Assembly: GCA_031296405.1 (NCBI GenBank)
Contig: JAVKKH010000012.1
Coordinates: 1-64,000, forward strand
From: Candidatus Tepidifontimicrobium thermophilum
GTDB taxonomy: Bacteria > Sysuimicrobiota > Sysuimicrobiia > Sysuimicrobiales > Sysuimicrobiaceae
DNA length: 64,000 nt
Reading direction: 5' to 3'
Both the position numbers and the translations under genes were made by a program. The notes beneath the pieces are model-generated. The model searched no databases. It was given only the letters and a program-made list of their open reading frames with translations, and was not told where the DNA came from. Below, in pieces: positions 1,358 through 11,579 of the stretch (its first letter is position 1; every line of letters starts with the position of its first letter).

Positions 1358-1938
1358 TACAGCACCCCGTGGGCCGTCACGATGGCCCGGGCGATCTCCA
1401 CCAGTTTCTTGTTCTCCTTCTGGCTCTGCACCTGCATGCGGCGGAAGGCCTCGGCTTCGCTGATCCCCAGCCGCTTCATGAGGATCCCCTTGGCCCGCTC
1501 GATGACCTTCCGCGCCTCGAGGGCCTCCCGCAGGTCCGCCACCTCCTTCTGCAGGAGCCGGAACTCCTCGAACCGCGCCCGCGCCAGGAGGATGGTGGGG
1601 AGCAGGTCCTCCTCGCTCACGGGCTTGACCAGGTAGGCGAACACCCCGGCCTCCGTGGCCCGCTCCACCAGCTCCGGCTCGCTGTACGCGGTGAGCAGGA
1701 TCACGGGGATGGGCCCGCGGGCGGTGATCTCCCGCGCCGCGGCGATCCCGTCCAGCTCCGGCATCTTGATGTCGAGGATGGCCAGGTCGGGGTGGTGGCG
1801 CTCGGCCAGCTCCACCGCCTCGCGGCCGTTGGTGGCCTCCGCCACCACTTCGAAGCCCAACGCCCGCAGCTGGGTCCTCAGGGTCATGACCCGGATGGCC
1901 TCGTCGTCCGCGATGAGGATGCGCAGACGGTCCTTCAC
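1357..1938 (-). CDS. Response regulator with ANTAR RNA-binding output
   Basis: Residues 1-120 form a receiver domain with acidic D11/D12, phosphoacceptor D56 (LDIKMP), T83 and K105 (LVKP). Residues about 130-187 form an ANTAR domain (KVIERAKGILMKRLGISEAEA). ANTAR regulators act as antiterminators: when phosphorylated they stabilise paired hairpins in leader RNAs. The gene starts with GTG at 1938 and overlaps the kinase stop by 4 bases, so kinase and regulator form a cognate pair. Its targets are unknown; it directly follows the polyprenyl-synthase and respiratory cluster in transcription direction. Confidence 0.92.
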   Translation of the reverse strand: MKDRLRILIADDEAIRVMTLRTQLRALGFEVVAEATNGREAVELAERHHPDLAILDIKMPELDGIAAAREITARGPIPVILLTAYSEPELVERATEAGVFAYLVKPVSEEDLLPTILLARARFEEFRLLQKEVADLREALEARKVIERAKGILMKRLGISEAEAFRRMQVQSQKENKKLVEIARAIVTAHGVL

Positions 1939-3137
1939 GCCGTCACCTCCCCGACCGCCGGCCCCACTTCCTCCCCGGCCTCGGGCACCTGGAAATGCAC
2001 CTCCGCCACCGCCCCGCCCTCCGAGCGAAGGGAGAAGGTGCCCCGCAGGTCACGGCTCACCAGGTCCCGGACGATACGCAGGCCCAGGTGTCCGTGCCGC
2101 TCCACGGAGAAATCCGGCGGCAGGCCCACCCCGTCGTCCCGGACCCTCACCCACACCTCCTGGCCCACCTGCCCGAGGTGCACTACCACCCGCCCGCGCC
2201 CGTCCGGGAAGGCGTGCTCCAGCGCGTTGTGGATCAGCTCGCTTAGCACCAGGGCCAGGGCTGTGGCCTGTTTGCTCGGCAGCCACACCTCCGGACCCTG
2301 GATCTCCACGCGCACCGCACGGCCCGCTCGGACCAGGTCCCGCCCGATGATCTCCCCGATGCGCTCCGCCAGCCGGCGTACCTCCACCGCCTCGATGCGG
2401 TCCGCGGACAGCATCTGGTGCACCGCGGCGATGCTCTTCACCCGGCCGATGCTGTCCAGGAGGCTCTTGCGGGCAGCTCCCCCTGCTTCGAGGGCTTCCA
2501 GGTACAGGAGGTCGGCGAGGGTCTGCAGGTTGTTCTTGATCCGGTGGTGCATCTCCCGCAGCAGGGTCCGCAGCTTCTCGTTGCTCTCCTCCAGGTCCCG
2601 CTGCTTCTCCCGGATCACCCGGTCCCGGGCCTCCAGGTAGGCCTGGCCGATGGCCAGCATCTGCAGGTCGATGGCCTCGTGGACCCGCTCCGTGGCCAGC
2701 ATCACGTCAGGGGGGAATGCCACCCACAGCCGCCGGCTCAGCATCACCTGCACTTGGGCGGACAGGCTGCTGCGCAGCAGGCTCAGAGCCTGCAGGATCT
2801 CCTCCAGGCTGAACCCCAGTTCCAGCTGCTCGGAGGCCACCCGGTGCGCGTGCTCGAAGACCCGGTCGCGGGCCTCCAGCCGCTCCACCTCGCCCCGGGC
2901 CCGCATCACCTGGACCAGCAAGTCCACCGTCTGCTTCCCCCAGCGGTCAGACAGATCCGGGTGTTCGGCGTACCGGGCCACGCGGCGCTGCAGGGAGGCC
3001 CGCCACCGCCTGACCACCACCTCCCGGTACGCCTCCAGGTGACGCGAGGTGGTGGCCACGGCGAACGACACCATGGCCTCCCGCACCCTCCCCAGGGGCG
3101 TCCGCAGGCTGTCCAGCCAGTGCCGCACCGCCTCCAC
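1935..3137 (-). CDS. Sensor histidine kinase (HisKA_2 type) with RsbRD-like N-terminus
   Basis: The C-terminal half carries the H-box MHHRIKNNLQ typical of HisKA_2 (PF07568) kinases, then an HATPase domain with N-box SELIHNALEHAF and G-boxes DDGVGLP and GHLGLRIV. The N-terminal half is all-helical, has no membrane segment and resembles the RsbRD N-terminal domain (PF14361), suggesting a cytoplasmic sensor. The signal is unknown. It is paired with the ANTAR regulator downstream (GTGA overlap). The start is uncertain: GTG at 3137 falls after the upstream stop at 3211; a longer reading from 3260 would overlap that gene and begin with low-complexity sequence. Confidence 0.85.
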   Translation of the reverse strand: MEAVRHWLDSLRTPLGRVREAMVSFAVATTSRHLEAYREVVVRRWRASLQRRVARYAEHPDLSDRWGKQTVDLLVQVMRARGEVERLEARDRVFEHAHRVASEQLELGFSLEEILQALSLLRSSLSAQVQVMLSRRLWVAFPPDVMLATERVHEAIDLQMLAIGQAYLEARDRVIREKQRDLEESNEKLRTLLREMHHRIKNNLQTLADLLYLEALEAGGAARKSLLDSIGRVKSIAAVHQMLSADRIEAVEVRRLAERIGEIIGRDLVRAGRAVRVEIQGPEVWLPSKQATALALVLSELIHNALEHAFPDGRGRVVVHLGQVGQEVWVRVRDDGVGLPPDFSVERHGHLGLRIVRDLVSRDLRGTFSLRSEGGAVAEVHFQVPEAGEEVGPAVGEVTA

Positions 3138-3210: not shown

Positions 3211-4188
3211 CTAGTGGCGGCGGGAGACCACGAACTCCGTGAGGGCCGCCAAGCTGTCACGCTCCGGCCCTCCCGGAAGTGTCTCCAGGATGCGGAGCGC
3301 CCGCTGGGCGTGCTGCCGGGCCACCTCCAGGGCGTAGGCGAAGGACCCGGATGTCTCCAGGGCGTGCCGGAGCGGGGCCAGCTCGCCTGCCCGGATCCAC
3401 TTCTCCAGCCGCCGGCGCCCCTGCTCGTCCGCGTGGCGGAGCGCGTGGATCAAGGGCAGGGTGACCTTCCCTCCCCGGACGTCGCTGCCAATCGGCTTGC
3501 CTAGGACTTCCGGGTCGCTGGTGAGATCCAGGGTGTCGTCGGTGATCTGGAAGGCCACGCCCCAGTGCAGCCCGAAGGTGCCCAGCCGCTCCGCCAGATC
3601 CCCGTCCCCTCCCCCCACCAGCGCCCCTCCCGCGCACGCGGAGGACACCAGCTGGGCGGTCTTGCCTTCCACGATGGCAAAGTACACCGACTCGTCCGTG
3701 TGCGGGGTGTTGCCGTACTTGACCTGGAGCAGCTCCGCCTGGCTCATGCGCACGGTGGCGAAGGCCACCCGGCTCGCCACGTCGTCCCGCCCGACTCGGG
3801 AGAGCAGGTGGAAGGCCTTGCTGAACAGGTAGTCACCCAGCAACACCGCCACGTGGTTGCCCCACCGGGCGTTGGGCGTCGCCTGACCGCGCCGGCGGTC
3901 GGCCTCGTCGATCACGTCGTCGTGGATGAGGCTGGCCACGTGGATGAGCTCCACCGCCGCAGCCACCAGGTCACGGTGCGCCCCTCCCCCTCCTGCCAGG
4001 CGCGCGCACAGGAACGCCAGGGCCGGCCGCACCATCTTGCCGCGGGTATGCAGCACATGCGACACCAGCTCCATGAGGAAGGGGTCGTGGGCCGCCAGTT
4101 CCTGGCGCAGCAGGTCCTGCAGCCGCTCCAGGTCCTCGCGAACCGGGGCGTAGGCGGAGGCCAGGGCGTCTGCCGCGGCCTGCGTCAT
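3211..4188 (-). CDS. All-trans polyprenyl (heptaprenyl/octaprenyl-type) diphosphate synthase
   Basis: A 325-residue class I trans-prenyltransferase with the first aspartate-rich motif DDVIDEADRRR, the second motif DDTLD and the GNHVAVLLGDYL region. It adds isopentenyl units to an allylic diphosphate to make the isoprenoid tail of menaquinone or a related quinone; chain length cannot be read from sequence. The ATG at 4188 overlaps the stop of the upstream cytochrome c gene by 4 bases. It therefore appears to be the last gene of the respiratory cluster, consistent with supplying its quinone. Confidence 0.92.
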   Translation of the reverse strand: MTQAAADALASAYAPVREDLERLQDLLRQELAAHDPFLMELVSHVLHTRGKMVRPALAFLCARLAGGGGAHRDLVAAAVELIHVASLIHDDVIDEADRRRGQATPNARWGNHVAVLLGDYLFSKAFHLLSRVGRDDVASRVAFATVRMSQAELLQVKYGNTPHTDESVYFAIVEGKTAQLVSSACAGGALVGGGDGDLAERLGTFGLHWGVAFQITDDTLDLTSDPEVLGKPIGSDVRGGKVTLPLIHALRHADEQGRRRLEKWIRAGELAPLRHALETSGSFAYALEVARQHAQRALRILETLPGGPERDSLAALTEFVVSRRH

Positions 4189-4730
4189 GGCTGGCGGCCC
4201 AGCCGCCGGACGTACTCCACCAGGGCCCAGATCTGGTCGTCCGGTAGCTGGCCGAAGGCCGGCATCCCGCTGCGGCGGGGAGTGTTGCCCAGGCCGTTCT
4301 TGATCACCCAGTGGGTAGCGCCCACCGGCATCCGTTCCTGAAAGGCCCGGAAGTGGAAGTTGAGGGGTTTCGGGTTCAGGGCCGCGCCCGCGGGGCCGTC
4401 CCCGCGTCCCTCGGGTCCGTGGCACACCGCGCACAGGGTGTCGTACTGGGCCTTCGCCTGGGCCAGCATGGCGTCCGTCACCGGACGCGGGGGCTGGTCG
4501 TCCCTGGCGTCCTCCGGGACCACCGCCAGGATGCCCATCACGTGCTCGGAGCCGTCCGGCGCCGCGGCGGTGCCTGCAGAAACACCCTCCACGTTCCGCG
4601 CCACCGGCCTGATTTCCGGCTGCACCAGCCCGCCCGCCACGAACAGGTACGCCAGGGCCCACAAAGGCAGCAGCACGTACAGCGCCAGCAGCCAGCGGGA
4701 AGGCCTCGCGGTGGTCGTTTCGTTTCCCAT
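4185..4730 (-). CDS. Membrane-anchored monoheme cytochrome c
   Basis: A 181-residue protein with one N-terminal hydrophobic segment (about residues 13-32) and no obvious cleavage site, so probably an anchored c-type cytochrome facing outward. One heme site (CAVCHG) and a probable axial methionine in SGMPAF fit a class I cytochrome c fold. The start ATG at 4730 is preceded by AGGAGG. It follows the CcoO-like gene by 8 bases and may be the electron acceptor of the complex encoded upstream, taking a CcoP-like role with a single heme. Confidence 0.88.
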   Translation of the reverse strand: MGNETTTARPSRWLLALYVLLPLWALAYLFVAGGLVQPEIRPVARNVEGVSAGTAAAPDGSEHVMGILAVVPEDARDDQPPRPVTDAMLAQAKAQYDTLCAVCHGPEGRGDGPAGAALNPKPLNFHFRAFQERMPVGATHWVIKNGLGNTPRRSGMPAFGQLPDDQIWALVEYVRRLGRQP

Positions 4731-4738
4731 GTCGCCTC

Positions 4739-5197
4739 CTACCGCAGCGCCAGCAGGTACGCCACCAGGTCAGCCAGCTCCGCGTCCGAGAGGTACCGGT
4801 ACGAGGGCATGCCCCCCGTGCCCGACAGCAGCGCCGTCCGCAATTCCTGTCCCGAGGTACGCGCCCCTACCCTTGACAGGTCCGGCCCTAGGCGCAGCCG
4901 ACCCAGCAGCACGGGGTCCTGACCGGAGTACTGCTCCGCAGTTGAAGCCTGCCCCACGTCACCCGGCGCGCGCACCACGCCGAACCGGGCCTCCACCCCT
5001 CGCACCTGCTGGGTGTGGCAGACCACACACCCCTCCCTCACGTACACCCACCGCCCCCGCGCCGCCTGGGCTGACAGGGGCGCCGCCCGCGCGGTCCGGA
5101 CCGCAGGATCTAGGGCGGGCAGGAGGGCGGTCACCACAAACCCGCACACCACCGCGGCCACCACCAGCCGCCCTACAGCTCCCACGGCATCCCTCAC
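4739..5197 (-). CDS. CcoO/FixO-like monoheme cytochrome c
   Basis: A 152-residue protein with an N-terminal membrane helix and the heme site REGCVVCHTQQVRG. It then has segments aligning with CcoO of cbb3 oxidases (ASTAEQYSGQDPVLLG, LGPDLSRVG, GGMPSYRYL); the methionine in the last is the likely axial ligand. CcoO normally passes electrons to the binuclear centre of CcoN. Here the neighbouring CcoN-like protein lacks all metal ligands, so its role must differ. The start is GTG at 5197 with GGAGGTGG about 4 bases upstream. The protein is shorter than typical CcoO (about 200 residues). Confidence 0.85.
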   Translation of the reverse strand: MRDAVGAVGRLVVAAVVCGFVVTALLPALDPAVRTARAAPLSAQAARGRWVYVREGCVVCHTQQVRGVEARFGVVRAPGDVGQASTAEQYSGQDPVLLGRLRLGPDLSRVGARTSGQELRTALLSGTGGMPSYRYLSDAELADLVAYLLALR

Positions 5198-5232
5198 CGC
5201 ACCACCTCCAGGACCCACCGCCTGGCGCACTC

Positions 5233-6627
5233 CTAAGACCCCGCCACCGGCAGGAGCTCCTGCTCCGCTGCGGGAACCGGTTCCCCGGAGTCTGAGGTCA
5301 AGAACAGGTTCCACGCGAACACCGCCTGGCCGACCCACACCAGCAGAGCCGCGGCCCAGGCCACGGCCAGCAGGGGCCGGCTGGCCTGTACCGCGTGAGC
5401 GAAGGGCACCGTGCCCGTGGCCCAAGCCGCACCCTGGCTCAGACCCGCCAGCAGCAGCGCGGGCGCAGAGAGCGCCCACGCCACCACCACCAGCCACAGA
5501 TGCCGCCAGGCCAGGGCCCGGCTCGCTAGCGAGCGTCCCAGCACGTGTGGCGTCAGCAGGTACGCACACCCCACGGCCACCGCGGCACAGCCGCCCAGCA
5601 CCAGAACCCGCACCCCCTCTCCCCACAGGGAGAGGTGCACCACGCGGCTGGGACCCACGAGGGACGCCAGCGCGCTCAAAGACACGCCGGAGGTCAGCGC
5701 CAGCCAGCCCGCCAGCACGAAGACCACACCGGGGTGGTCCCCGAGGGACTGCCAGTGCCCTTCCAGCGACCGCGCGGCACCCACGAGCAGCGTCGCCACC
5801 GGCAACACCAGCAGCCCCTGCGCCACAGCGCCCACGGTCTGCACCCAGAACGGCACCGGACCCCACACGAACTCCGCGGGCCCAGCGAGAGCCCCGAAAC
5901 TGACCAGGCCGAACAGGGCGGCGAAGCCCACTCCCTCCGAAAGCCCGCGCCGGCCGGTCAGGGCCGACAGGACGTACAGGCAGACCCCACCGGCCAGCGG
6001 GACCCCCCATAGCCAGACCAGGCCTGCCCGCAGGAACGCCTGGCTCAGAGCGTCCAGGATCCCGTGGTAGGGGTTGTCGAAGGGCCAGAACAAGCCCTTC
6101 CCCAGTACTAGGACCAGAGGCAGCCCGGTGAAGCCCGCGAACACCAGGGCCAGCGCGGGGTCCCTACGGGGAGATCGGACGAGCGTGTTGCGAACCACCC
6201 ACAACAGAAGCAGCGCGCCCGCTAGCCGGAGCAGGTCCACCGGCCAGGGAGCCTCACCGAGCGGTCGGCCTCGGGTCCAGCCCGTGGAGATCCACCACCA
6301 GCTGAGCACCTGCGCCACAGTCCACAGCCACAGGCTCAGGTTCGCGAGGGGCTCGCTCCACAGCCCCTCCCGGTCGCCCTGTCCCACCACCCGCAGCGCC
6401 GCGCCCACCAGGAGGTGGGACAGGAAACCGAACACCCACAGGTCCTGTCCGGTGGCCACCACCCGCCCGTGGGACACCCAGGGGACGTCCGCGAGGACCT
6501 GCGGCCAGGCCCGCTGCGCGGCGGCCAGCGCCTCGTAGGCCAGCGCCAGGATCCCCCACAGCGCGCCCGCGTACAGGAACCGCCGGACGGAGCTCCATCG
6601 CTCGTCGGTGAACATCCACGCCAGCAT
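5233..6627 (-). CDS. CcoN-like cbb3 oxidase subunit I homologue lacking all heme/CuB histidines
   Basis: A 464-residue polytopic protein of about 12 helices. It aligns from end to end with CcoN: WGILALAYEALAAAQRAWP, WPVDLLR, AGPAEFVWGPVPFWVQTVG and SQGAAWATG have direct CcoN counterparts. The catalytic ligands are gone. The low-spin heme histidine of RPLHTN is G60. The CuB histidine of WYGHN is A201. The CuB pair AGPHH is A251-E252. The heme ligand pair HVH is G338-V-R340. The frame is intact and followed by a CcoO-like gene, so it appears selected as a protein but cannot be an oxygen reductase. It may be a structural or quinone-binding subunit. The alignment was made by eye from memory of CcoN. 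Confidence 0.8.
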   Translation of the reverse strand: MLAWMFTDERWSSVRRFLYAGALWGILALAYEALAAAQRAWPQVLADVPWVSHGRVVATGQDLWVFGFLSHLLVGAALRVVGQGDREGLWSEPLANLSLWLWTVAQVLSWWWISTGWTRGRPLGEAPWPVDLLRLAGALLLLWVVRNTLVRSPRRDPALALVFAGFTGLPLVLVLGKGLFWPFDNPYHGILDALSQAFLRAGLVWLWGVPLAGGVCLYVLSALTGRRGLSEGVGFAALFGLVSFGALAGPAEFVWGPVPFWVQTVGAVAQGLLVLPVATLLVGAARSLEGHWQSLGDHPGVVFVLAGWLALTSGVSLSALASLVGPSRVVHLSLWGEGVRVLVLGGCAAVAVGCAYLLTPHVLGRSLASRALAWRHLWLVVVAWALSAPALLLAGLSQGAAWATGTVPFAHAVQASRPLLAVAWAAALLVWVGQAVFAWNLFLTSDSGEPVPAAEQELLPVAGS

Positions 6628-6642
6628 CCCGTGTCCCTTCCG

Positions 6643-6759
6643 CTACGCCTCCGCCACCAGACCGAAGGCCGCCACGAACAGCAACAGGGCAAAGAACACC
6701 AGGTAGAACAGGGCGTACCACAGGTACGTCTTCCACCGTTTCGGGCCAAACCGCGTCAC
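6643..6759 (-). CDS. Small single-helix membrane protein (38 aa) of the respiratory cluster
   Basis: A short gene reading VTRFGPKRWKTYLWYALFYL and continuing with a strongly hydrophobic stretch to LVAEA. Start GTG at 6759 overlaps the stop of the FlpD-like gene by 4 bases, and GGAGGGAAGCG precedes it, so translation is well supported. It has one transmembrane helix with a positively charged N-terminus. It sits directly before the CcoN-like gene. In position and shape it recalls the tiny accessory subunits of heme-copper oxidases (CcoQ/CcoH-like), but no homology is claimed. Confidence 0.7.
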   Translation of the reverse strand: MTRFGPKRWKTYLWYALFYLVFFALLLFVAAFGLVAEA

Positions 6760-7187
6760 CGCTTCCCTCCGGATCCGCGCACCCGGTCCACGAACTCCGC
6801 CACCGCGCGCAGGAAGTCCTCCCGCTCGTGCAGGCCGAAGGCAAAGAACGCGACCCGCTCAGGGTCCACCTTCTGCCGGCTCAAACGCTTCCGCAGCTGG
6901 TCGATGCGATCCTCCATGATCCAGTTGCCTTCCCGGTTGAGGCAGTCCCCCATGGGGCAACCGCACACGAAGGCGCCCGCGGCGCCGCTGCGCAGCGCCA
7001 GCTCCAACCACCCGGGCTTGACGAACCCTGAGCAGGGGACCCGGATCACCGTGACATGCGGCATGCCTACCAGGGTGTCGTCGGCGCTCAGGAGCCCCTC
7101 GCTGCGTACCGCCCAGTCGCACAGGAACCCCACGACCCGGGGGGCTGCCTCCTCCGCCTGCGGGGTCCGATCCGGTACCGTCGCCAT
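6756..7187 (-). CDS. FlpD/MvhD-type iron-sulfur protein (hydrogenase delta-subunit family)
   Basis: A 143-residue cytoplasmic protein of the FlpD family (PF02662): VVGFLCDW, RVPCSGFV, FVCGCPMGDC and the following EGNW. Five cysteines are conserved (C23, C52, C75, C77, C82). The second cysteine of the usual CNWC motif is replaced by alanine. In methanogens the family links F420-non-reducing hydrogenase to heterodisulfide reductase through a [2Fe-2S] cluster. Here no hydrogenase or HdrA is nearby; it lies between a ferredoxin-fused cytochrome b and the CcoN-like gene, so it probably connects the membrane complex to a soluble redox partner. Confidence 0.85.
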   Translation of the reverse strand: MATVPDRTPQAEEAAPRVVGFLCDWAVRSEGLLSADDTLVGMPHVTVIRVPCSGFVKPGWLELALRSGAAGAFVCGCPMGDCLNREGNWIMEDRIDQLRKRLSRQKVDPERVAFFAFGLHEREDFLRAVAEFVDRVRGSGGKR

Positions 7188-7197
7188 GGCTCTCGCC

Positions 7198-8373
7198 TCA
7201 GGAACCCACCGGGGCCGCGGCGCGTGCGCCCCGCTGGATGCGCTGCTGTACGTCTTTGTCCAGCATCCTCGGCAACTCCAGGGCCTCGAAGGGGCAGGCG
7301 CCGATACAGATCCCGCACTCCACGCACCGGGAGTCCACCACCACTGCCAGCAGCTTCCGGTTGGCCGCAGCCCGGCTCTTCCCCGGGTACGGGCTCGGCA
7401 CCATGTAGATGGCGTTGTACGGGCAGTCGTAGTAGCACAGCTCGCAGCCCGTGCAGTTCTCCTCCACCACCACCGCCTGGCCCAAGGCCCGGACGCCCCG
7501 CTGCTCCGGAGTCTCCCGCAGGGTGTAGGGGACCACCATGCCGTATGCCACCAGGGCCACCACCAGGGCCAGGGCCCAACCGGGCGCCAGCCAGCGGGCC
7601 AGCACGTACGGCCACAGGAAGAACCAGTCCACCGCGAACCCCTCCGGCGAGGCGCCCGGCTGCGCCGGCCGTCCGCTCGTGGCGGGCAAGGCGGAAGCGA
7701 GGATGAACAGCAGGCCCAGGCTGAACAGCACCCACACGGAGGGGGGCCAGATCTTGGGGTGGCGGAGGCGCACGTAGTGCCACCACAGGAGTACGTACAG
7801 GGTCATGGCGGGCCCCACGTGGAGGAACAGGAACCGCGGCAGGGTGGTGTCGCTCACCCCGGGGCCCCCCAGGAATACCCGGGCGAGCCGGTCTCCCACC
7901 AGGGGGACGGACCTCAGGGCCTGTACCGTGAGGCTCGTCAGCAGCTGCGACCGCTCGTCCCACACCAACAGGTAGCCGGTGAAGCCCGCGAAGCCCGACA
8001 CCACCAGCAGGAACATCCCCGACAGCCACTGGCTGTCCCGGGCCTCCCGGTAGCGGTCCGTGAACCAGTTCCGGAACAGGTGCAGGAGGATGGCCACCAG
8101 GTACGCGTCCGCGGCGTAGCGGTGGATCCCGCGGAACACGACCCCGTAGGGCACGTCGCGGGTGAGGAACTCCACCGAGGCGTAGGCGCCCTCCAGGCTC
8201 GGCTCGTAGTACAGGAAGATGAGGATCCCCGACACCACCAGGATGGTGAGGAACAGGTTCGACAGCCCCCCGGTGTAGTACAGGGGGTTGAAGTCCTGCG
8301 GCAGGACGCGGTTGATCCAGGTGTCCAACCGCAGGGTGGCACTCTGCAGGCTCAGCAACAACCGCCGGTACAC
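7198..8373 (-). CDS. Cytochrome b (#2) fused to a C-terminal 2[4Fe-4S] ferredoxin domain
   Basis: A 391-residue protein. Residues about 30-290 form a Rieske-type cytochrome b with both heme pairs complete: H84/H98 in helix B and H185/H199 in helix D, each 14 apart. The Qo motif (PEWY in relatives) reads VDWF. Residues 307-317 (CTGCELCYYDC) and 350-360 (CVECGICIGAC) are two classical CxxCxxCxxxC sites for [4Fe-4S] clusters on the cytoplasmic side. It can thus carry electrons from the quinone site to clusters near the FlpD protein encoded 10 bases downstream. The start is GTG at 8373, one base after the upstream stop. Confidence 0.9.
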   Translation of the reverse strand: MYRRLLLSLQSATLRLDTWINRVLPQDFNPLYYTGGLSNLFLTILVVSGILIFLYYEPSLEGAYASVEFLTRDVPYGVVFRGIHRYAADAYLVAILLHLFRNWFTDRYREARDSQWLSGMFLLVVSGFAGFTGYLLVWDERSQLLTSLTVQALRSVPLVGDRLARVFLGGPGVSDTTLPRFLFLHVGPAMTLYVLLWWHYVRLRHPKIWPPSVWVLFSLGLLFILASALPATSGRPAQPGASPEGFAVDWFFLWPYVLARWLAPGWALALVVALVAYGMVVPYTLRETPEQRGVRALGQAVVVEENCTGCELCYYDCPYNAIYMVPSPYPGKSRAAANRKLLAVVVDSRCVECGICIGACPFEALELPRMLDKDVQQRIQRGARAAAPVGS

Positions 8374-8374
8374 C

Positions 8375-8578
8375 CTAGTCCTCCGCGGTGAGGTGCGCCT
8401 TGCGGAACAGCACCACGATGACGGCGTACAGCACCAGCAGCACGCCCACGGCTCCCGAGGCCACCAGGCGCCGGTCGAACCACTCCCCGTACACCATCAG
8501 GCCGACGCACGCCAGGGCCAGTACCGCCAGAAAGCCCGCCACCGCCAGGTACCAGCCGCCGCGCTCTGGCTCCCTCAC
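8375..8578 (-). CDS. Small two-helix membrane protein (67 aa), unknown
   Basis: A 67-residue protein with two transmembrane segments separated by YGEWFDRR and a short basic-acidic C-terminus. The GTG start at 8578 overlaps the upstream stop by 4 bases, with GGGAGGTGG in front. No family is recognised. Its position between the two cytochrome b genes suggests a small subunit of the same complex. In b6f-type complexes the C-terminal helices of cytochrome b can be encoded separately, but both cytochrome b proteins here appear complete. Confidence 0.7.
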   Translation of the reverse strand: MREPERGGWYLAVAGFLAVLALACVGLMVYGEWFDRRLVASGAVGVLLVLYAVIVVLFRKAHLTAED

Positions 8579-8838
8579 GGCCACCTCCCGCCTCGCTGGA
8601 AAGCCAGCCAGCGCTCGTACACCGCGACCCGTCGACGCACCCGGCCCGCCCGGCGGTCCGCGGCGTACAGCAGGTAGCCCGCCCACGCGGCCGAGACCAC
8701 CAGCACCGCCAGCCACCCGGCCGCCACAAGCCACCGCTCCGGCTGGGGCTGTACCCACGCCAGGCGCGCCGCCTGCCAGGTGCCGTGCAGGCCTGCTACC
8801 GCCAGGCCGAAAGCCATCCCGAACCGGACCGCCTCCAC
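8575..8838 (-). CDS. Small two-helix membrane protein (87 aa), unknown
   Basis: An 87-residue protein with two hydrophobic segments (about residues 7-25 and 37-58), then a basic tail rich in arginine (AADRRAGRVRRRVAVYERW) that should lie in the cytoplasm. Start GTG at 8838 lies 4 bases after the stop of cytochrome b #1. No known family is recognised. The basic cytoplasmic tail could contact the soluble iron-sulfur proteins; that is inference from position only. Confidence 0.65.
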   Translation of the reverse strand: MEAVRFGMAFGLAVAGLHGTWQAARLAWVQPQPERWLVAAGWLAVLVVSAAWAGYLLYAADRRAGRVRRRVAVYERWLAFQRGGRWP

Positions 8839-8842
8839 CGCC

Positions 8843-9991
8843 TCACCCCACCGTCGCCCGGGCCGGCGCGGCCCGCGGCGCCGGGGCCGGCGCGGCGGCC
8901 TCTGCGAGCTTCCTCCGCCGGCGGTAACGGAACTCCAACACCAGGCCCAGACCCAGGGTGGCGGCGGTGACCAGCAGGACCACGTGCGGGTCCCTCCCGA
9001 TCACGGCGATGTTGAACATGATGAGAGCGGTGAACACCAGGAAGTAGGTCAGGGCCATAATTCCCACCACGGTGAAGAAGGGGCGCTCGGACGGCCTGCG
9101 GCCCTTGCTGCGGTCGAGGAACGGCACCAGCATCCCGTACGCGATCAGCAGACCCGGCCCCAGCCCGGCCCACAGGGGCGGGGTGTACTTCACGTACTGG
9201 TACAGCGCCAGGAAGTACCAGTCGGAAAGGATCGGGAGCGGCGTCCGGTTGGGGTCGGCCCGCCGGCCCATCTCCGCGGGGAACACGTAGCTGGTGACCA
9301 CCAGCATGAGGGCCAGGATCACCAAAGCGGTGGGGGACAACACGAACCGGCGCCGCCGGGTGAAGTAGAAGTAGATCTCCGCCGCCACCAGCAGCAGGGC
9401 CGAGATGCCGAAGTGGATGGCGTAGAAGCGCGTGAGAGTCCCCTGCCCTTCCGCGGGCCCACCCAGGAAGGCGAAGGCGATGGCGCTGCCGAACCGCGTC
9501 TGCCCGATGAGGGGCAGCTCATCCAGGTACACCGCCACCGTGAGGACTACCTTCGCCGCCCAGAAGGCCCGCTGGTTCCAGATCAGCAGGTACCCCGTGA
9601 GGCCGGAGATCATGGCCAGCACCAGGGAGCCGAACAGGATCATCCACGACAGCTCGTTGGGCCGCTTGTACTCGCCCAGGAAGTACATCCGGTAGATGCG
9701 CAGGGTGATGGCGAGGATCAGCATGTCCGCGCCGTACTTGTGCACCCCGCGGATCAGCCAGCCCAAGGGGACCTCGTGCTGGATGCGGAGGATGGAGTTG
9801 TAGGCGCCGTGGGTGGTGGGCTCGTACCAGATCATGAGCAGGATCCCGCTCACCACCACCGCGATCCACGCGAAGTACACGATCTGACCGAGGAGGTAGA
9901 GGGGGTTGTCCTGGCGGTCGACCTGGGTCTCGTCGAAAAGGTCCAGCTTCTCCTTGCGCTCCCGGAACCACTCCCGCAACCGGTCCCACAT
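8843..9991 (-). CDS. Cytochrome b (#1) of a Rieske/cytochrome b complex, bH heme ligands missing
   Basis: A 382-residue protein that co-linearly matches cytochrome b: GWLIRGVHKYGADM, SGLTGYLLIWNQRAFWA, TLTRFYAIHF, and a Qo motif reading LSDWYFLALY. The low-potential (bL) ligands H84 and H193 are present. Their bH partners 14 residues on are R98 and Y207; position 208 is phenylalanine, so the b6-type 15-residue spacing does not rescue it. It would therefore bind only one b heme. It has extra C-terminal helices and an Ala/Pro/Arg-rich tail. It follows the Rieske gene by 12 bases, so it is the more likely direct Rieske partner. Confidence 0.9.
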   Translation of the reverse strand: MWDRLREWFRERKEKLDLFDETQVDRQDNPLYLLGQIVYFAWIAVVVSGILLMIWYEPTTHGAYNSILRIQHEVPLGWLIRGVHKYGADMLILAITLRIYRMYFLGEYKRPNELSWMILFGSLVLAMISGLTGYLLIWNQRAFWAAKVVLTVAVYLDELPLIGQTRFGSAIAFAFLGGPAEGQGTLTRFYAIHFGISALLLVAAEIYFYFTRRRRFVLSPTALVILALMLVVTSYVFPAEMGRRADPNRTPLPILSDWYFLALYQYVKYTPPLWAGLGPGLLIAYGMLVPFLDRSKGRRPSERPFFTVVGIMALTYFLVFTALIMFNIAVIGRDPHVVLLVTAATLGLGLVLEFRYRRRRKLAEAAAPAPAPRAAPARATVG

Positions 9992-10003
9992 CGCTCCGGC
10001 TCC

Positions 10004-10648
10004 CTAGGCGATCCCGCCGGGCTCGGCGCCCGTCACCACGATGACCCCGTCGCGGATCTCGTAGGTGAAGTAGCGGGGGGGCCGGGGCGCGGGTCCCGAC
10101 AGCACCCGGCCGGGCACCTCCCGGTCCGCGGGGTCGTAGATGGACAGGTGGCAGGGGCAGGCCATGAGGCCGTGGCGACGTTCCTCCGGCGGCACGTACC
10201 CGCCGTAGCCCGCCGTGACCTCCCGCCAGTTCGGCACGTAGTTGAAGATGCAGCCCAGGTGCGGGCAGATGCGGGAGAACACCACGATGTCCGTGGGCTC
10301 CTTCCCGGCCTTGTAGCCGGGGAAGCTCAACTTCCACGGCAGCTTGATGGCCACCCCGGGGACCGTGGCCGCCTTGGCCAGCTCCGGCGTGTACTGCGGG
10401 TACTTCTGGGTGAACACGAAGAACTTGCTGGACCAGGGCTCGCGCAGCTCCTCCAGGGTGGCGATGGGGAGCGGCTCCCCCTTCGGGAGGTCCCCCTCCG
10501 CGAGGTCCGGGGGCACCTTCCCCTGGGGAACCCCCAGCCCCGGCTCCAGGTTCGGCTTCAGGTAGCGCAGCACCGGCGCCAGGAAGGCGCCGAGACCCCC
10601 CAGCACCGGCACCGCACTCAGCGCCTTGAGGAACGTCCGACGGTTCAC
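10004..10648 (-). CDS. Rieske [2Fe-2S] protein with Tat signal
   Basis: A 214-residue Rieske protein. The N-terminus MNRRTFLKAL followed by a hydrophobic helix is a twin-arginine signal that probably stays as a membrane anchor. The cluster ligands are C128/H130 and C164/H167; C133 and C166 can form the usual disulfide (CPHLGC and CPCHLS). It oxidises quinol at the Qo site of cytochrome b and passes one electron to a cytochrome c. The GTG start at 10648 sits downstream of the diheme cytochrome gene. TatA, needed for export, is encoded at 607-774. Confidence 0.95.
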   Translation of the reverse strand: MNRRTFLKALSAVPVLGGLGAFLAPVLRYLKPNLEPGLGVPQGKVPPDLAEGDLPKGEPLPIATLEELREPWSSKFFVFTQKYPQYTPELAKAATVPGVAIKLPWKLSFPGYKAGKEPTDIVVFSRICPHLGCIFNYVPNWREVTAGYGGYVPPEERRHGLMACPCHLSIYDPADREVPGRVLSGPAPRPPRYFTYEIRDGVIVVTGAEPGGIA

Positions 10649-10676
10649 AGCCCCGCCTCCGTTGCCGCACCCGCAG

Positions 10677-11579
10677 CTAGCGCAGGTCCTGCGGCGGCGT
10701 GTACACGAACGTCCACAGGTACTCTACCACGCTCCAGATCTGGTCCGCCGAGAGCTTGCCCGCGTAGGCGGGCATGAGCTCCAGCCCGCGCCGCTGCACT
10801 CCCTCCGCGATCTTCTGGTACAGCTCCGTGGGCTTCCGGTAGGCCATCCAGTCCCGGTCCGTGAAGATCCCCGGCCCCACACCCCGCGCCCACGTCCACA
10901 CCTGCTCGCGGATCCGGGCGGCCTCGGGACCGTTCCCGTCGCCCGCCACCCCGTGGCAGCTGGCGCACAGCTGGTTGTAGATCCGCCTTCCCTGTGCCAG
11001 CCGGTCCCGGCTCGTGGTCCGGCTCCACTCCCAGAACAGCACGTCCCAGATCTGTTCGTCCGTAAGGCGCGGATCACCCCCATCCACGGCACCGTAGGCG
11101 GGATGCTGGAAGCCGGGCATGGCAGTGTGGGGCCGGCCCCGGGCGATAGTCTCGAACAGGGCGAACGGCGCGTTCAACCGCATCTGGTCCAGGTTGTTGA
11201 AGCGGGCGGGCCGACTCGGCAGCGGCTCGGTCTTGGGGTGGATGCGGAACAGGCTCAAGAAGTCCGTGTACGGGTTTTTCTCCGGAGCGGTCAGCTGCTC
11301 CGCCATGGGGCCGTCCCCACGGCCCTCGGGCCCGTGGCACACCGCGCAGCGCGCCTCGTAGATCTTGCGGCCCTCGTCCGCGCTGGGCTTGCGGGGCATG
11401 AAGTTCATGCGCACCACGAACCCTTCCAGGGGCTGGTAGGCCTCCCTGGCGGGGGTGCTCACCCCGACGTACGGCTGGCAGCCCGCGAGGCCGAGAATCG
11501 CCGCCACCAGCAGCAACAACCCGCCGGCCCCCCCGCGGGGCCGCCGGCCGCACAGGGGTCCGGCTTGCCGTCGGTGCAA
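10677..11579 (-). CDS. Diheme cytochrome c lipoprotein
   Basis: A 300-residue protein with a lipoprotein signal ending in the lipobox LAGC, then two class I heme sites, CAVCHGPEGRGDGP and CASCHGVAGDGNGP. Candidate axial methionines lie in TAMPGF and ELMPAYAG. It is the first gene of the respiratory cluster and probably accepts electrons from the Rieske protein outside the membrane. The start is TTG at 11579 because GGGAGGCAGG lies immediately upstream and the signal peptide begins properly there; in-frame sequence further upstream has no fitting start. Confidence 0.9.
   Translation of the reverse strand: MHRRQAGPLCGRRPRGGAGGLLLLVAAILGLAGCQPYVGVSTPAREAYQPLEGFVVRMNFMPRKPSADEGRKIYEARCAVCHGPEGRGDGPMAEQLTAPEKNPYTDFLSLFRIHPKTEPLPSRPARFNNLDQMRLNAPFALFETIARGRPHTAMPGFQHPAYGAVDGGDPRLTDEQIWDVLFWEWSRTTSRDRLAQGRRIYNQLCASCHGVAGDGNGPEAARIREQVWTWARGVGPGIFTDRDWMAYRKPTELYQKIAEGVQRRGLELMPAYAGKLSADQIWSVVEYLWTFVYTPPQDLR

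Follow-up and report, generated by a model that had tools for sequence, protein, structure and literature searches.

A twelve-gene operon on the minus strand of the Candidatus Tepidifontimicrobium thermophilum genome encodes what is, by its parts, a Rieske/cytochrome b complex, yet one of its two cytochromes b lacks the canonical four haem-ligating histidines. The operon runs from position 11579 down to 3211 of the analysed stretch of DNA, the first 64,000 nucleotides of contig JAVKKH010000012.1 (hereafter the window; 71% guanine plus cytosine, part of a 2.44 Mb genome). The two cytochromes b are paralogues, here termed b1 and b2: the former has lost both ligands of the high-potential haem (bH), and the latter retains all its haem ligands, carries binding sites for two [4Fe-4S] clusters and is directly followed by an FlpD-like protein. 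We hypothesize, with about equal weight for and against, that b1 and b2 form a heterodimeric Rieske/cytochrome b complex in which quinol would be split at b1 and the second electron would pass through b2 to the iron–sulphur (Fe-S) clusters and FlpD.

The evidence consists of the gene set, the losses and gains of ligands, their conservation and their co-inheritance. In helix B of b1, the ligand of the low-potential haem (bL), H84, is kept and the bH position is occupied by R98; in helix D, the bL ligand H193 is kept, no histidine lies 14 or 15 residues further on, and Y207 takes the bH position, with E205 nearby. A motif table was compiled from 58 b1 rows representing Sysuimicrobiota, Obscuribacterales/Melainabacteria, Deinococcales and acidobacterial metagenome-assembled genomes (MAGs), some genomes being present twice; one further row (L020), picked by mistake, is actually b2 and was left out. 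Both bH histidines are gone in 58/58 rows, position 98 being arginine in 56 and lysine in 2, and position 205 is glutamate throughout, so that the single cytochrome b with four haem-ligating histidines by which bc1 and b6f complexes are canonically recognised is absent from every row. Among 29 aligned b1 sequences, H84 and H193 are the sole invariant histidines, and E205 is invariant as well. As a control, eight ordinary cytochromes b from Sysuimicrobiales genomes all keep the four histidines and the P[ED]WY motif of the quinol-oxidising (Qo) site. The natural reading is that a buried Arg–Glu pair would fill the place of haem bH in b1. A substitute axial ligand was sought among the other conserved histidines of b1 and in a small subunit, and none was found; the small membrane protein smA has no conserved histidine in 41 aligned rows.

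The four-helix part of both proteins aligns to cytochrome b6 and to the cytochrome b of bc1, and Foldseek matched both structural models to bc1 cytochrome b (b1, m6bde4817a22a, predicted local distance difference test score, pLDDT, 78; b2, mef27734af926, pLDDT 88). The Qo signature of b1 is coherent, with an invariant SDWYFL (LSDWYFL) and a b6f-like cd1 stretch, whereas b2 has VDWF or worse in place of P[ED]WY, and its cd1 and ef Qo motifs are degenerate when aligned to cytochrome b6. All four haem ligands of b2 are present (H84, H98, H185 and H199), together with eight cysteines for the two [4Fe-4S] clusters (C307–C317 and C350–C360), and these four histidines and eight cysteines are invariant across 45 aligned sequences. 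In-frame TGA/TAG codons flagged in some b2 matches proved to be natural stops near the C-terminus in the four that were checked.

FlpD, the only one in the genome, is recognised by Pfam above the cut-off (1.6e-25), has four conserved cysteines and is related to MvhD (PDB 5odc chain D, E = 8e-17). Neither the operon nor the homologous clusters that were inspected contain a hydrogenase or HdrA gene, the search for HdrA having been confined to these loci; a search for an FlpD partner through the CCG domain PF02754 pointed to none, as this family is too general. Fusions of b2 with FlpD, lacking Rieske and b1, occur in Proteobacteria, Opitutales, Nitrospinota, Rokubacteria and other groups, mostly beside heme-copper oxidase subunit I. 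About 30 loci of this kind, in which cytochrome b, two [4Fe-4S] sites and FlpD are joined, were recorded among L072-L109 (e.g. L090:9812-13755 and L074:6231-12064); the cultured Thioalkalivibrio denitrificans ALJD and Nitrospinota have them in tandem. At two Nitrospinota loci and one Nitrospirota locus (L074:8360-9703, L077:2-802, L108:1-1221) the fusion adjoins a NuoF-like protein that binds NADH (reduced nicotinamide adenine dinucleotide) and flavin mononucleotide; such a neighbour might give nitrite oxidisers a direct connection to NAD(H) for reverse electron transport. Because the fusions stand alone beside oxidases, some of them with a NuoF-like neighbour, b2-FlpD would seem to be a module that relays electrons between haems in the membrane and a carrier in the cytoplasm, possibly NAD(H).

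The Rieske protein scores slightly below its Pfam cut-off (17.9 against 20.3 bits), and both Cys/His pairs are present. Its ligand motifs, CPHLGC...CPCH, were found in 26/26 loci with the full set, one of them with a CAHLGC variant. The second motif extends to CPCH[LF]S[IV][YF]D in all 33 Rieske proteins of the system, with serine in every one and tyrosine in 31 (phenylalanine in the other 2), whereas the ordinary Rieske proteins of the order have glycine at the serine position. Serine and tyrosine raise the Rieske potential, and two anammox Rieske proteins that were measured gave +303 and +335 mV (PMC12954380); the protein described here is predicted to be of the high-potential type. A high-potential Rieske protein combined with menaquinone has been argued to allow a very low-potential b branch (PMC12954380), and the quinone of this organism is probably menaquinone, since MenD was found in its genome and MqnA was not. 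The published account of the phylum (PMC11604079) describes all lineages as respiring aerobically and reports sulphide:quinone oxidoreductase from 109 genomes and autotrophy for several families, a metabolism for which additional low-potential reductant would be useful; it makes no mention of Rieske or cytochrome b.

The core of the operon, from the diheme cytochrome c to FlpD and a 38-residue peptide, is conserved across Sysuimicrobiales, the sole order of the phylum Ca. Sysuimicrobiota among the genomes compared, usually with a polyprenyl synthase downstream of it. Relatives retrieved by protein search carry labels such as 'Armatimonadetes', 'Bacillota' and 'Terrabacteria group bacterium ANGP1' MAGs, the last of which belongs to Sysuimicrobiales in the NCBI taxonomy. 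Contig breaks aside, every genome of the order with an intact b1 locus has b2 adjacent. Outside the phylum, the same set occurs in Obscuribacterales/Melainabacteria, two Deinococcales MAGs, Acidobacteria (Holophagaceae) and a MAG labelled Symbiobacterium; in these, ccoN and ccoO lie upstream of the core, whereas in the window they lie downstream. As the core recurs both across the order and in other phyla, the arrangement is not a matter of chance. In a tree, full support was obtained for three separate clades, one each for b1, b2 and the ordinary cytochromes b, some long branches leaving the finer placement unsure. The pairwise distances of b1 and b2 correlate at 0.97 over 26 loci, which reflects common inheritance and is not by itself a sign of contact. 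In one genus (g7 of family f5; G010, G023, G029 and G032), b1, b2 and every heme-copper oxidase have been lost, and at least one of its genomes (L130) retains a small Rieske/cytochrome b pair of the ordinary type; the genus has apparently switched to anaerobic life.

In the proposed route, quinol would be oxidised at the Qo site of b1, and the first electron would pass to the Rieske cluster, the diheme cytochrome c and the terminal oxidases. Since b1 lacks haem bH, the sole exit from its haem bL would be the partner across the dimer; the second electron would thus cross to bL of b2 and continue through bH of b2 to the two [4Fe-4S] clusters and the [2Fe-2S] cluster of FlpD on the cytoplasmic side. 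There a soluble carrier would be reduced, either ferredoxin or, through a flavoprotein, nicotinamide adenine dinucleotide (phosphate), NAD(P)+. The uphill step would be paid for by the high-potential Rieske protein and the menaquinone pool, the net outcome being low-potential reductant made from menaquinol and O2. This path is proposed because the natural pair shows the same pattern as cross-inactivated bc1 constructs. In bc1 with the helix-D bH histidine removed from one half and the Qo site blocked in the other, transfer between the two bL haems was catalytically relevant (PMC4330944). Like those engineered fusions (B-B / BS-B, H212N + G158W; PMC4330944), the present system would combine one half without a bH ligand and another with an impaired Qo site, so that electrons would have to cross from bL to bL; unlike them, it is not a laboratory construct with a Q cycle, as it is natural, both bH ligands are gone from b1 and b2 has an Fe-S outlet. 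In its most extended form, namely an obligately asymmetric heterodimer that has abandoned the Q cycle and, in several phyla, uses bL-to-bL bifurcation with Fe-S clusters and FlpD as the path by which ferredoxin or NAD(P)+ is reduced, the proposal is tentative and falls somewhat short of an even chance.

Several points weigh against the bifurcating heterodimer. The b1/b2 dimer, its cofactor content, the direction of flow and the acceptor or partner of FlpD are predictions from sequence, and the haem and Rieske potentials are guesses from residues. The b2-FlpD fusions without Rieske or b1 in many lineages indicate that b2 can act alone, and it might do so here; a quinone site on the negative (n-) side of b2 is also possible. 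The operon contains no Hdr, hydrogenase or flavoprotein gene. By gene order and sequence, the genome has complex I and an NAD-type formate dehydrogenase, and as these could supply NADH, a need for low-potential output is not established.

If b2-FlpD acts on its own, the operon would hold two separate enzymes: a quinol:cytochrome c reductase made of b1, Rieske and cytochrome c with a single b haem, and an independent cytoplasmic donor:quinone (or quinone:acceptor) oxidoreductase made of b2 and FlpD. The fusions that stand alone beside heme-copper oxidase genes, from Proteobacteria to Rokubacteria, speak for such a division; however, b1 without both bH and b2 leaves the second quinol electron no outlet, b1 always occurs with b2 except at contig breaks, and the two share strict adjacency and a common history across phyla. 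We consider this explanation unlikely. Still less probable is the same heterodimer running in reverse, with cytoplasmic low-potential electrons entering at FlpD and passing through the [4Fe-4S] clusters to the haems of b2, either to reduce quinone at b1 together with an electron from cytochrome c (confurcation) or just to feed the oxidase side. In principle the chain of cofactors can run either way, b2-FlpD has NuoF-like NADH-binding neighbours in Nitrospinota and Nitrospirota, and oxidases adjoin nearly all the homologous settings inspected; yet the order respires aerobically (PMC11604079), so that oxidases drain cytochrome c and favour quinol oxidation, and the high-potential Rieske type suits the forward direction. 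We likewise give little credence to an ordinary Q-cycle complex III with divided labour (Qo chemistry at b1, n-side quinone reduction at b2, Fe-S clusters and FlpD as an accessory or regulatory tap), which would fit what seems to be the sole Rieske/cytochrome b complex of this genome and its company of oxidases, since several phyla retain all eight Fe-S and four FlpD cysteines, which does not suit a mere accessory, and other genera of the order carry ordinary four-histidine complexes alongside, so that a plain Q cycle could do without the odd complex.

The asymmetric, bifurcating complex that we favour shares with bc1 and b6f a Rieske protein, the fold of cytochrome b, a cytochrome of the c type, the bL ligands kept by b1 and b2 alike and, in b1, a b6f-like cd1. 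It departs from them in having two paralogues where those complexes have the same cytochrome b twice, in the missing bH ligands of b1, in the Fe-S domain and degenerate Qo site of b2, and in the FlpD subunit. A parallel is offered by the anammox complexes Kuste4569-4574 and Kustd1480-1485 (PMC12954380), for which quinol bifurcation has been proposed, one electron passing through Fe-S clusters to a cytoplasmic low-potential acceptor, and whose Rieske protein, with serine (and tyrosine), is of the high-potential type predicted here. Those complexes comprise one b6-type cytochrome b homodimer, a subunit IV and a flavoprotein NAD(P) module (PMC12954380); the system of the window differs in its b1/b2 pair, in the Fe-S domain fused to b2 and in FlpD, and neither its operon nor the clusters inspected in other phyla include a gene for an NAD(P)/flavin adenine dinucleotide oxidoreductase. 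FlpD belongs to the same family as MvhD of the Mvh hydrogenase–heterodisulfide reductase complex and shares four cysteines with it, but the fifth cysteine of MvhD is absent. The link to hydrogenase/Hdr electron flow drawn in a sequence-only reading of this DNA finds no counterpart here, as no hydrogenase or HdrA gene adjoins FlpD.

The same reading had left the novelty of the gene set to a database check. A literature search combining Rieske with FlpD, with MvhD and with a second or heterodimeric cytochrome b, within freely available papers, yielded no account of the b1/b2 asymmetry or of an FlpD outlet. The combination itself is not new, as b6f-like genes next to a C-type oxidase have been published for Melainabacteria as a complex III/IV combination (PMC6349859, citing Soo et al.). 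This Melainabacteria/Obscuribacter arrangement appears to be the same operon, but with an intact C-family oxidase, the common set being ccoN-ccoO-cytochrome c-Rieske-b1-smA-b2-flpD. In that text (PMC6349859), no mention was found of two cytochromes b, bH loss or FlpD, and the paper on the Obscuribacter genome goes no further than a cbb3 oxidase. If the proposed mechanism is true, the 'complex III/IV fusion' reported for these non-photosynthetic relatives of Cyanobacteria would have to be re-read, and the complex would be a natural version of the asymmetry so far engineered to prove electron transfer between the halves of complex III. It would also mean that quinol splitting can serve to generate low-potential reductant, in place of a proton gradient or in addition to it. 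This would explain where quinone-reducing aerobes and oxidisers of sulphide could get their ferredoxin or NAD(P)H, and the mechanism proposed for anammox bacteria would gain a second case, independent of the first.

The genes of the operon, which overlap or are separated by gaps of at most about 30 bases, are listed below in order of transcription.

10677..11579, minus strand: diheme cytochrome c, probable lipoprotein, with two CxxCH motifs and a lipobox-like LAGC (Pfam Cytochrom_C and Cytochrome_CBB3; place kept across the order)
10004..10648, minus strand: Rieske [2Fe-2S] protein, CPHLGC...CPCHLSIYD (Pfam Rieske just under the cut-off; ligand motifs)
8843..9991, minus strand: cytochrome b1 (Pfam Cytochrome_B; alignment to b6/bc1; motif table; model; Foldseek)
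8575..8838, minus strand: smA, small membrane protein, core subunit (found in 41 aligned rows from several phyla)
8375..8578, minus strand: smB, small membrane protein, seen in Sysuimicrobiota only (locus comparison)
7198..8373, minus strand: cytochrome b2 with two [4Fe-4S] sites (Pfam Cytochrome_B and Fer4; invariant residues; model; Foldseek)
6756..7187, minus strand: FlpD-like [2Fe-2S] protein (Pfam FlpD, 1.6e-25; cysteine table; MvhD relatives in PDB)
6643..6759, minus strand: 38-residue single-helix membrane peptide, core subunit (present also at loci without ccoN)
5233..6627, minus strand: CcoN-like protein lacking all six haem/CuB ligands (Pfam COX1, 9e-25; ligand alignment; dN/dS, the ratio of non-synonymous to synonymous substitution rates)
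4739..5230, minus strand: CcoO-like monoheme cytochrome c, CVVCHTQQ (Pfam FixO, 3e-14)
4185..4730, minus strand: membrane-anchored monoheme cytochrome c (Pfam Cytochrome_CBB3)
3211..4188, minus strand: polyprenyl diphosphate synthase for the quinone side chain (sequence motifs)

The start of the CcoO-like gene was placed at 5230, judged from the end of ccoN, and the polyprenyl synthase was assigned to its family from sequence motifs without a Pfam scan; in nearly all loci of the order, its homologue closes the cluster at the 3' end. The diheme cytochrome c is likely the electron acceptor from the Rieske protein. At the position of smB, other phyla hold an unrelated-looking gene. Pfam and motifs agree with the twelve co-directional, tightly packed genes described in the sequence-only reading, and the gene set, whose failure to co-occur in relatives would have counted against that reading, does recur there as a core. 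Its quinol-splitting complex, with one branch to cytochromes c and the other through hemes b and Fe-S clusters to FlpD, survives as the leading explanation, but not as one complex of all twelve products, since most of the order lacks CcoN, CcoO and the last cytochrome c. It had lacked the loss of bH ligands in b1, the degenerate Qo motifs of b2, the high-potential Rieske residues and the intact CcoN of other phyla.

The CcoN–CcoO–cytochrome c module occurs in the order only in the family of the studied genome and in two further families; because the core does without these three proteins in most Sysuimicrobiota, they are an optional module and not fixed parts. The CcoN of the window, already recognised as dead from the sequence, keeps 0/6 of the ligands of the cbb3 type (low-spin haem, haem b3 and CuB) when aligned to its homologues from other phyla, and a role as an active oxidase was rejected on this alignment. 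All six ligands are intact in the CcoN homologues shown from Obscuribacterales, Deinococcales and Acidobacteria, and they are partly lost in the Symbiobacterium-labelled MAG (L040) and in one other Sysuimicrobiota family. The label of L040, Symbiobacterium thermophilum, looks doubtful; its CcoN represents an intermediate stage of decay. For ccoN, dN/dS is 0.12-0.22 against near relatives and about 0.5 against distant ones, compared with 0.05-0.06 and 0.13-0.17 for b1. The dead CcoN is still under purifying selection and is kept as a protein, with relaxed constraint. In this family, CcoN may be a heme-free leftover of an ancestral III/IV supercomplex, retained as a scaffold.

Three other heme-copper oxidase loci are present in the genome (contigs C1, C33 and C37) and likely encode the real terminal oxidases or nitric oxide reductases. 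By sequence, a CcmE-like gene lies upstream of the twelve-gene cluster, and a histidine kinase and a response-regulator-like gene (window positions 1360-3137, minus strand) lie immediately downstream of the polyprenyl synthase.

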